Made by a program: the position numbers and the translations under genes
Notes under the pieces: generated by a model
Told to the model about the DNA's origin: nothing
Seen by the model: only the letters and a program-made list of their open reading frames with translations
The model's database searches: none
Part shown: positions 2,188-61,182 of the stretch, one piece after another
Numbering within the stretch: the stretch's first letter is position 1
How the letters are laid out: every line of letters begins with the position of its first letter
Assembly (NCBI GenBank): GCA_030272155.1
Contig: CP126192.1
Coordinates: 3,940,501-4,004,500, forward strand
Reading direction: 5' to 3'
Length of the DNA: 64,000 nt
DNA from: Tetradesmus obliquus
Lineage: Eukaryota; Chlorophyta; Chlorophyceae; Sphaeropleales; Scenedesmaceae

Positions 2188-4070
2188 TCAGCTGTTGGTG
2201 TCTGCTGTGCGCAGCAGCTTGCGCTGCTTCTTGCTCTTCAGCATCTTCTTGACTGTGGCAGCGTTGGTGATCTGCAAACAACACAAAAAGCACACAGCAG
2301 ATGGTCAGGTGCTGAGTGACAAGCACAACCAGCCTGCTGCCATGATGTGGTACTGACGTGGAACAGCATGCACGGCGGGTGTGCTTGCTATGCTGCAGAT
2401 ATTGTGTGGTTGTGGTTGCCATATGCATTTGCAAGGCTGGGCTAGCTGGCCTGACCATTTCAGGCGCATGCCTGCACAGCTGTGACACCCCTGTGCTCGA
2501 CTGCAGCTCCTGGCACCAAGCAGCTGCCTCCAAGCGACATGCCAGCTAATGGCCACAAGCTGCAACGTAGGGACATGCATCTCTGCCAGCTGTTGCGCAA
2601 GCAAGCAAGCCTTGAGGCATCACTAACAGCTGCCAGCAGCTGCCAGCGGCCGCATCGTTCGCCTCACCTTCTGCACAACTGCGCTTTTCTCCTGGTTCTG
2701 CTTCTTGCGGTCCTTGACTGCCTGCCGGTGCTTCGCCGCAGCCTGCAGGAATGAAGGCCAGAGGCGCATGAAGTGAGTGATTTCGCAGATTGTCGCAATG
2801 ACTCAGCAAGCTTTTGTGGTTCAGCCAGCTGACTCTCATGCCAATCAACTTTGAGTTGCACATGTTGCACAAGCTGAGCTAGAGCACCACATGCACACAA
2901 TTGCCTCAGATAGGCGACATGAACAGGCAACCCTAACTGCCCCCAACACCACGTGTCCTGGCATGTGTTACAGCTGCTTTGGCTGTGGCAACTGCTAGCC
3001 TGCAAGTGCTGCCGCATGTGTCCTTGAATGCCACAGCCGAAGCAGCCATGACAGCGATATCTGCATCCGCGGTTATGCCGCTGCACTGCTGTTCTGCTGC
3101 TGCAAGCCACAGCTTCTGTAGAGACTCTGCAGATGTCAGCTGTCAACATCTGCGTGGTACATTGCTAACTACCGTCAGTGCACAGCCCAGCTCTATGCCG
3201 GCGCCCCGCACCTTGCGCTTCTCCTTGTGCGCGTCCACTGCCGCCTGCTTCTGCTCCTGGAAGGCCTTCTTCAGCGCCTTGGCCTGCATCTTCTTCTCCC
3301 AGCTGCTGCCCAGCACAGCGTTCTTGTCCGCGCTGGCGCGCTTCTCCGCCTCACCCTTCCAGGTCTTGCCAGACACCTGCAGCGCCGCGACACGACAGCC
3401 GTAACATGGCAAAATAGTAGGGCTTGAGGAATGTCAGCACGTAGAGAATTGCTGCACGAAACACGGAAAAAGGTACATTGCCTCCAGCTGTGCAAACGGA
3501 GTCAGGCTGCCATGCGCGCTGCAGTGGTGGTGCCGCCAGCAACATGAACCTCGCAGAAGTTCAAGCACGCACCGCACACATGCAGCAAAAGTGCAGGCAT
3601 TGCAACTGAACACCAATTTGCCTCATTGGCTGAACACTGCAAACTTACACACAGAAGCACATGCATGACGCCTGCATGCTGCCAGCCAGGCTGGCTGCTG
3701 CTGCTGCCGCTGCACATCTTGCAATCTAGGCCTACACAGCTGATGTCAGCCTACACCAGCACGTGAAGATTACAACGCACACCATACCAGTGCCACTCAC
3801 GTTGCGATAGGCGACACCTTCAGCTCTTTGCCGCTTCACTGCTGGTGCTGTTTCTGTGTCGTCCCCATCATGCTCCATGGCCATCGGCTGCTCCTCTGGC
3901 TGCTGCTGTGCTCGTAAAATCTTCTCATATGTGCTTTTGCCGCTCTTTACAGGCTTGACCTTGTAGCCGCGAGGCCCGAGAGAAGCATGCCGCAAGTCCA
4001 GAGCCTCTTTTATCTCCACCTGCTTTGGCTCCCATTCTTTGCGCTTTCTGCTGCCACTTTGTTCTGCCAT
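2188..4070 (-). CDS. CGR1/CCDC86-type ribosome-biogenesis protein
   Basis: Predicted small nucleolar protein of the Cgr1/CCDC86 family, which works in processing of the pre-rRNA of the large subunit (family knowledge). Four exons, 4070-3801, 3376-3212, 2742-2668 and 2271-2188, all joined in phase 0, give 197 aa. The N-terminal ~90 residues are divergent and charged (RKRKEWEPKQ, a PAVKRQR nuclear-signal-like patch). The diagnostic part starts with exon 2, VSGKTWKGEAEKRAS, runs through a Lys/Arg/Gln-rich helix (KALKKAFQEQKQAAVDAHKE, AAAKHRQAVKDRKKQNQEKS) and ends in the KKMLKSKKQRKLLRTADT tail, like the K-M-x-KK-x-R-K tail of the family. Neighbours on the same strand are eS7 upstream and CHLM downstream. 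Function by similarity only. Confidence 0.85.
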
Positions 4071-49912: not shown

Positions 49913-50762
49913 TTTCGTCGTCCGCGTCTTTGTCCCCAAGACACACGCAGTTGCTGTCAGCAGGAACCGGACTTTGTTTGGCGCTCTGAGGATGCCAGCC
50001 CGGAGGCGCAACAACGTTTTATTGTTTTTAAAGTATCACAACTTTCAACTTCAACTGACTTTGATTGGCCAAGGTGCACGACTGACGAGGGAGGCACTTC
50101 CCGCCCATGAGCCTAACCCTCAGAGCTCAGTTTTAGGCTTTCAGTCAGACCCTATGGCAAAGCTAGCTTTATAGGGCCTGTACAAACCCGCTTCGTGCAC
50201 TGGATGTTTGTCGTAGTATTCCTGATGATTGCTGTGCCCACCACACCAAGCTTCATACTGGAAGCTCCTTGCAACTTGCACAACTTCACTTGCCACTTGC
50301 AGCTGTGCATGTGCTGCATGCAGCACATGACTACTACGAAGAAGCACTGTGATGTGTGCCACACATGCAATCCTGTAAAAGCTCTGTCACAGCCTGTTCC
50401 TGGTGCTGCCTGCACCTCAGGTGCCACAGTGTGGCCTTGAGAACTGCTGCATGGTGGTGATGCTGGCAGCTGCTGCTGGTGGTGGATCCTGACCTCAGAT
50501 CCATGCTGCGTGTTACTGGCCCATTCGTCAGCATCCTGAATAGCTTTGTCGCGGTGTGCAGCAACGTTCGATTCGTCAGGGCAGCTGCTGTCAGGCCATA
50601 GCTGCCCAGATGTGATCGTAGCAGCCGTACGGAAGCGTTGGACACACCATAGACGTGAACCATGGCAAAGGCAGAAAATCGGCCTGGGATGTCTGAAAAA
50701 ATAACACTTTTGCGTTTATATCCAGGTAACACAGCTGAGCAAACATCGAGCACCGGCACGCT

Positions 50763-50904
50763 ATCAATTGGGAGTTCCCGCGCAGGTTCAAATCCTGCTC
50801 ACCGCGTGTGATTCTACCGTGTGAGTACATTGAATCTGGCTGCTGATGCAGCCTGTACGCCTATATGGCGGTGATGGCCGAGCGGTTAAGGCGATTGACT
50901 AGAA
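50763..50904 (+). tRNA. Circularly permuted tRNA-Ser(AGA) gene
   Basis: The two halves are in reverse order. The 3' half is 50763-50806: A38, stem TCAAT, long variable arm with GGG/CCC, T arm GCAGG-TTCAAAT-CCTGC, acceptor strand TCACCGC and discriminator G73. A 61-nt spacer (50807-50867) follows, then the 5' half at 50868-50904: acceptor GCGGTGA, D arm GCC-GAGCGGTTAA-GGC, stem ATTGA, anticodon AGA at 50901-50903. Swapping the order gives a complete 81-nt serine tRNA with a perfect 7-bp acceptor stem and 5-bp anticodon stem. The normal splice point 37/38 is kept. Outer flanks GCACCGG (50749-50755) and CCTGGTGC (50906-50913) pair around one bulged T, as in the splicing helix of a permuted pre-tRNA. 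No alternative 3' half was seen downstream up to DEG1. Confidence 0.88.
50807..50867 (+). other. Intervening sequence of the permuted tRNA
   Basis: 61 nt between the discriminator base and the 5' end of the acceptor stem, to be removed by tRNA end processing after circularisation (inference from known permuted genes). It folds into GGCTGC-TGAT-GCAGCC (50838-50853), extended by GTACA/TGTAC (50825-50829 with 50854-50858). Confidence 0.7.
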
Positions 50905-50914
50905 ACCTGGTGCA

Positions 50915-50918
50915 TTTT
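50915..50918 (+). terminator. Pol III terminator of the permuted tRNA
   Basis: TTTT directly after the flanking helix strand CCTGGTGC; a second TTTT follows a few bases on. A TATAT at 50717-50721 is a possible upstream promoter element. Confidence 0.55.
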
Positions 50919-61000: not shown

Positions 61001-61014
61001 GCACTACGTGTGCC

Positions 61015-61086
61015 AGCCCCTAGCCAGGTTCGAACTGGCGTTTTTGGATTCAAAGTCCAAGGTGATCACCACTACACTATAGGGGC
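61015..61086 (-). tRNA. tRNA-Gln(TTG)
   Basis: 72-nt cloverleaf: acceptor GCCCCTA/TAGGGGC, D arm GTGTAGTGGTGATCAC, anticodon stem TTGGA/TCCAA with loop CTTTGAA (anticodon TTG), T arm CCAG-TTCGAAC-CTGG, discriminator T. No intron. The LINE fragment lies directly downstream. Confidence 0.93.
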
Positions 61087-61093
61087 TACAGGA

Positions 61094-61182
61094 TACCCGA
61101 AGCGGGGCTCGAACCCGCGACCACCAGATGTCGTCGACATTCAGGTAAAAGTCTGGCGCTCTACCAACTGAGCTATCCGGGC
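61094..61182 (-). tRNA. tRNA-Lys(TTT) with 16-nt intron
   Basis: Acceptor GCCCGGA/TTCGGGT (two G-T pairs), D arm with TAGCTCAGTTGGTAGAGC, anticodon stem CCAGA/TCTGG, anticodon TTT (61149-61147), T arm GCGGG-TTCGAGC-CCCGC, discriminator A. A 16-nt intron (61145-61130) lies at the canonical site after position 37. The mature tRNA is 73 nt. Only 7 nt separate it from tRNA-Gln. Confidence 0.93.

Follow-up and report, generated by a model that had tools for sequence, protein, structure and literature searches.

A family of permuted tRNA-Ser(AGA) genes predicted in the green alga Tetradesmus obliquus

A locus at which the 3' half of a serine tRNA precedes its 5' half raises two questions: whether so rearranged a gene can work, and what else in the genome supplies the same isoacceptor. 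We examined such a locus in the window, a 64,000-nucleotide stretch of DNA from Tetradesmus obliquus, and searched the genome assembly (GCA_030272155.1; 17 contigs; N50 6,124,559; 104,662,953 bases, or 104.7 Mb). T. obliquus, an oil alga available in culture, belongs to the order Sphaeropleales, class Chlorophyceae. On sequence evidence, we conclude with a probability of about 0.9 that the locus is a functional type II (37/38) permuted nuclear tRNA gene and one of four that jointly supply tRNA-Ser(AGA) in this alga. The window gene and its flanks comprise the following features.

50702..50720, forward strand: upstream element TAACACTTTTGCGTTTATA, a probable Pol III promoter element common to ordinary tRNA genes
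50750..50762, forward strand: 5' leader, whose GCACC(GG) arm pairs with the trailer and whose G at -3 can pair with C32 (A-I pair)
50763..50806, forward strand: 3' half of tRNA-Ser(AGA), positions 38-73, with the long variable arm, the T arm (B box) and G73
50807..50867, forward strand: intervening sequence of 61 nt, bridging the 3' and 5' ends of the acceptor stem
50868..50904, forward strand: 5' half of tRNA-Ser(AGA), positions 1-37, with the D arm (A box) and anticodon AGA
50905..50914, forward strand: 3' trailer ACCTGGTGCA, which pairs with the leader and contains GGTGC in all four copies
50915..50918, forward strand: TTTT, a probable Pol III terminator, starting at +10/+11 after the 5' half in all four copies

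The 3' half thus lies upstream of the 5' half on the same strand, as in a type II permuted gene. When 50868-50904 and 50763-50806, the halves as delimited in the original prediction, were rejoined in that order, ARAGORN recognized a tRNA-Ser(aga) of 81 nt. All pairs form in the acceptor stem (7/7), the anticodon stem (5/5, topped by an additional G-U pair) and the T stem (5/5), and the molecule further has a 3-pair D stem, a long variable arm and G73. The cloverleaf previously drawn by swapping the halves is therefore reproduced by an independent program. In the linear window, neither ARAGORN nor Rfam reported a tRNA at the permuted locus, and both found only two other tRNAs, at 61 kb. A split, trans-spliced tRNA was considered and rejected: 38-61 nt separate the two halves, which share a strand, and a T run follows the downstream one. 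The window has a GC content of 57.1%; six of its long open reading frames matched no Pfam family, and the longest had no PDB match. Two exons of light-harvesting (LHC) genes, one Lhca5 and one Lhca4, match entry 8cmo most closely and C. reinhardtii entries next, ahead of those of Chlorella and Bryopsis or, in the case of Lhca4, Ostreococcus, as would suit a chlorophycean that is not Chlamydomonas. One LHCII exon has 9vfj chains as its best matches overall and 9is4 and 6kac (C. reinhardtii) as the best among ordinary LHCII chains; a second LHCII exon did not separate the candidates, and one more LHC exon gave no match.

The original prediction concerned this one gene. The permuted layout stands, but the gene is not alone: the genome search revealed four permuted Ser(AGA) loci on three contigs, namely the window copy (C2:3991240), L002 (C2:4016824, 25 kb from the window copy), L003 (C8:3202299) and L004 (C10:767499). 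All four give a complete Ser(AGA) cloverleaf on rejoining (ARAGORN), L004 with A73 and one D-stem mismatch. In every copy A37 ends the 5' half and A38 opens the 3' half, which places the junction at 37/38, as proposed for the window gene. Their spacers, of 61, 61, 38 and 56 nt in the order given, are poorly conserved outside the recent duplicate. The two C2 copies align over 242 bp at 92.6%, upstream element included, and have identical halves and identical 61-nt spacers. L003 and L004 differ from the window copy at 3 and 5 of the 81 tRNA positions, respectively, and their alignment to it ends with the 170-180-position unit. Given the window copy, L003 and L004 and no structure, RNAalifold returned the permuted cloverleaf together with a paired leader and trailer. 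Both sides had changed in 5 of 35 pairs. One is T-stem pair 49-65, a G-C pair in both C2 copies that L003 and L004 replace with A-U; another is a leader/trailer pair, in a region where the alignment is uncertain; the other three lie in the spacer and carry no weight because the spacer is poorly aligned. One of the four leader/trailer pairs, subject to the same uncertainty, and one D-stem pair are each broken in one copy.

A second, decayed 5' half lies about 100 nt downstream of the L004 gene, at about 1420-1375 of L004 (reverse strand; C10:767392). It scored 15.5 bits with the permuted covariance model described below and is preceded by traces of a 3' half; it is possibly a former tandem permuted copy. 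Judged by this neighbor, its A73 and its D-stem mismatch, L004 may be losing function. A tRNA-Ala call over part of L003 was spurious and arose when ARAGORN was allowed introns of up to 3000 nt.

If these genes work, the next question is whether the cell depends on them. A pattern for the Ser(AGA) 5' half matched the genome four times, each time in a permuted gene, and BLAST with the spliced tRNA (5 candidates) returned the four permuted loci and a collinear Ser(CGA). The check for another tRNA-Ser(AGA) that accompanied the original prediction thus yielded three further permuted copies and, by pattern and BLAST, no collinear one. The serine isoacceptors found in collinear form are Ser(CGA), Ser(TGA) and two Ser(GCT). 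We accordingly rejected the idea that one aberrant gene accompanies a normal one, since the pattern and spliced-tRNA searches gave no ordinary Ser(AGA). A more general Ser-type pattern produced 20 matches (9 with the reversed control). The 15 examined include the four permuted genes, the decayed half beside L004 and the four collinear genes for Ser(CGA), Ser(TGA) and Ser(GCT); six of the 20 coincide with no ARAGORN tRNA, two of them, on C8, resembling tRNA remains.

It is improbable that the permuted genes are expressed and yet leave most of the supply to an ordinary tRNA-Ser(AGA) that escaped detection. The searches, one based on patterns and the other limited to five BLAST candidates, are non-exhaustive, so an unusual ordinary gene could escape, and an unusual D arm would evade both. 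Nonetheless, two independent searches revealed no such gene, and the five remaining Ser-type matches are not Ser(AGA) genes of normal spacing because the anticodon-extended pattern matched permuted genes only. Moreover, when the pattern was narrowed, it picked up an ordinary Ser(AGA) in an unrelated contig (L151, JAIYDP010000043.1), which demonstrates that such patterns can detect ordinary genes. That gene was the one ordinary collinear Ser(AGA) in a scan of genome contigs with the Ser(AGA) 5' half; viral contigs scanned with the same half gave no match. Its role here is that of a control; it is not a relative with permuted layout. It occupies positions 3793-3874 on the reverse strand of a contig assigned to a Verrucomicrobiaceae MAG, is of eukaryotic type and is followed by a T run; contamination of the MAG by DNA of eukaryotic origin is probable. 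Most likely, then, the four loci form a working type II permuted family that would be the sole source of tRNA-Ser(AGA) in T. obliquus, as judged from its genome. Under standard wobble rules, UCU and UCC codons would depend on the permuted genes, provided that no gene was missed.

Ser(AGA) was the one permuted isotype among the examined matches to Leu, initiator-Met, class I and Ser-type patterns. All 11 Leu 5'-half matches and six of the seven for initiator Met belong to ordinary collinear genes, the seventh being a half without an ARAGORN tRNA, and hence no second permuted isotype was found. The class I pattern gave 23 matches, seven at new places; two of the seven were examined, one an Ala gene and the other without a tRNA call. 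With Rfam, 63 of 1714 tRNA candidates were scored.

Transcription signals were sought with TAACACTTTTGCGTTYATA, a pattern derived from the upstream regions of tRNA genes and run against the whole genome with at most one mismatch. Nine sites were found, and none with the reversed-pattern control. All nine lie upstream of tRNA genes, with the element starting 45-107 nt before the gene: two are permuted Ser(AGA) genes and seven are ordinary genes, for Arg(TCT), Cys(GCA), Tyr(GTA, with an intron), Lys(CTT) (two genes), Arg(CCT) and Ser(CGA). Because the pattern was built from such regions, the real test is the absence of sites elsewhere. The window copy thus shares an upstream signal with some ordinary tRNA genes. 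In the genome pattern search L003 and L004 showed no close match to the element, which is missing from many ordinary tRNA genes too. Looser forms, outside the one-mismatch list, precede an ordinary Ile(TAT) gene (L010) and an ordinary Arg(TCG) gene (L036). Downstream, the consistent position of TTTT across the four copies (three distinct) compares with a chance of 0.0067 per 7-nt window slot.

These signals, along with the pattern of conservation, bear on whether the loci are non-functional relics, that is, a rearranged or inserted tRNA-derived repeat that happens to resemble a permuted gene. tRNA-like repeats do occur in this genome (12 of 65 tRNA predictions are Thr(GGT)-like), and L004, with its A73, its D-stem mismatch and the decayed half alongside, has features expected of a relic. 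We nevertheless regard this explanation as very unlikely. Only four copies were found; their halves have been kept while spacers and flanks diverged; a T-stem pair has been maintained through two-sided change and the T run retained; two copies have an upstream element common to ordinary tRNA genes; and the isoacceptor has no ordinary gene that we could find. A SINE or other tRNA-derived repeat was rejected on the number of copies and on the fact that the diverged ones align over 170-180 positions only. Collectively, the copies, their conservation and the shared element support the original proposal of a probably functional permuted Ser(AGA) gene in a chlorophycean.

A covariance search approached the layout directly. 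To build the permuted model (R1), 18 tRNAs, including that of the window locus, were recast in permuted order at 37/38; with it the window copy scored 57.0 bits (E 3.5e-16 for 91,885 bases). The other three copies scored 57.0, 59.7 and 52.3 bits; single ordinary tRNAs among ten sources reached at most 28.4 bits. A tandem Lys/Gln pair at 61050-61129 scored 52.1 bits because two adjoining tRNAs mimic the permuted layout, and therefore a high score alone cannot tell a permuted gene from adjacent tRNAs. This pair (61014-61182, reverse strand) consists of a tRNA-Lys(TTT) with a 16-nt intron and a tRNA-Gln(TTG) a few nucleotides apart. Despite the Lys-Gln score, there is a negligible probability that an assembly error or a pair of unrelated neighboring halves has been misread as a permuted gene: ARAGORN finds no neighboring tRNA at the Ser locus, the acceptor and anticodon stems match in full, and four loci on three contigs, with three different spacers among them, show this layout.

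Maturation of a permuted transcript would call for a structure that a splicing endonuclease could recognize. The outer flanks of the window copy pair as CUGGUGC with GCACCGG, giving seven pairs that include one G-U. GCACC at -13 to -9 of the leader, GGTGC in the trailer and a G at -3 opposite C32 are present in all four copies (three distinct). Among 5000 random window pairs, 3.3% were equally stable as the leader/trailer duplex of the window copy; the fractions as good for the four copies were 0.033, 0.033, 0.077 and 0.055. By chance alone the pairing is unremarkable because the DNA is GC-rich; what gives it weight is that diverged copies retain it at a constant position, although the core GCACC/GGTGC is invariant and so tells little. 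As for a bulge-helix-bulge, the anticodon stem, the leader/trailer helix and the C32-G(-3) pair occur in all four copies, and the central helix has two to three of four pairs by eye. Of the flanking helix originally proposed as a substrate for the endonuclease, the complementarity thus holds at seven pairs; the central helix of a strict bulge-helix-bulge is weak. A purine at -3 paired with position 32 constitutes the A-I pair, described as a requirement of eukaryotic splicing endonucleases. Two genes in the genome match PF01974, the tRNA endonuclease family; by their motifs, L121 looks Sen34-like and L122 Sen2-like. A-I pairs are among the features recognized by the yeast splicing endonuclease, according to a review (PMC3978253).

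We propose the following route to the mature tRNA. RNA polymerase III would start from the upstream element and produce a transcript of leader, 3' half, spacer, 5' half and trailer, ending at TTTT. This RNA would fold as a cloverleaf whose anticodon loop is open and whose leader pairs with its trailer. Cleavage at 37/38 by the tRNA splicing endonuclease would release both flanking segments, after which a ligase would seal 37 to 38 and so create a circular RNA. RNase P and tRNase Z, cutting at the acceptor stem, would then excise the spacer, and the tRNA would be completed by CCA addition and A34-to-I34 editing. We infer transcription of the permuted genes, their circular intermediate, aminoacylation of the product and their essentiality from DNA sequence. 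The most far-reaching form of this reading, which we hold to be fairly probable, is that an essential tRNA-Ser(AGA) comes only from a dispersed permuted family, the first in Chlorophyceae, that multiplies by duplication as permuted units, with at least two members transcribed from an upstream Pol III element common to ordinary genes, making the reversed order of A and B boxes irrelevant.

In the 2014 review by Soma (PMC3978253), 34 permuted tRNA genes are counted in six algae and one archaeon, the hosts being a red alga, prasinophytes, a nucleomorph and the archaeon, and Chlamydomonas reinhardtii is given as having none. The closest counterpart tabulated there is the permuted Ser(AGA) of Micromonas pusilla (Maruyama et al. 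2010), of type II with a 64-bp spacer. It agrees with the genes described here in isotype, anticodon, 37/38 junction, lack of an intron and location in a green algal nucleus, and nearly in spacer length (61 nt in the window copy); the comparison is at the level of the table. M. pusilla is, however, a prasinophyte with six permuted isotypes listed, as opposed to a chlorophycean with one isotype found in four copies. The Ser(AGA) of the Bigelowiella natans nucleomorph shares isotype and junction, but its spacer is 5 bp and its genome a relic, compared with 38-61 nt and a full nuclear genome here (PMC3978253). Cyanidioschyzon merolae offers the functional parallel: according to Soma et al. (2007, via PMC3978253), its genes have an upstream TATA-like element, a downstream T run and an endonuclease junction motif, and a circular intermediate has been demonstrated biochemically. 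Its 11 genes comprise four junction types, whereas only type II was found in T. obliquus and the element here is not a plain TATA box.

The original prediction had considered such a gene undescribed in core green algae. At that breadth the claim fails, as a 2025 Plant Cell report describes permuted tRNA genes in the trebouxiophyte Auxenochlorella UTEX 250-A (PMC12636532). Those genes, too, lie in a core chlorophyte nucleus, have the permuted layout and were overlooked by an initial tRNAscan-SE run; they differ in belonging to Trebouxiophyceae rather than Chlorophyceae. Novelty is limited further by M. pusilla, for which the same isotype and junction are tabulated (PMC3978253). For Chlorophyceae the claim stands to the extent that no permuted tRNA gene was among the matches listed in our literature search, with subscription papers and supplements outside its scope. 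As far as we have seen, what is new is the algal class, a copy number of four, the apparent absence of an ordinary counterpart, and an upstream element that ordinary tRNA genes also carry.

An apparent dependence of a 105-Mb chlorophycean genome on permuted genes would mean that this layout persists, or arose, deep within the core green algae, and that it can be duplicated as a unit. Permuted Ser(AGA) genes are also missed by ordinary tRNA searches (ARAGORN, Rfam). The common upstream element provides a testable answer to how transcription proceeds without ordered A and B boxes and, since T. obliquus is cultured, the predicted circular RNA can be sought directly.

Three further observations concern the tRNA genes of this genome at large. 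The end of the window and the DNA beyond it (C2:3.99-4.07 Mb) are rich in tRNA genes, with two permuted Ser(AGA), Lys(TTT), Gln, two Lys(CTT), a Tyr gene with an intron and a second gene of that type; a PF01974 gene lies there at C2:4060345. Another upstream motif, GGTT(T)CGAA (or GGATTCGAA), precedes 12 of 53 tRNA predictions within 110 nt, the 53 being all 65 minus the 12 Thr(GGT)-like repeats, against a background of 0.175% of 20,000 random window stretches; L009, L013, L029 and L035 are examples. The Thr(GGT)-like repeats themselves (L064-L068, L072, L083-L085 and L087-L089) mostly have a constant tail near GTGGCTGGGCCTAAAAAGCTTGCGACT and are probably a tRNA-derived SINE.
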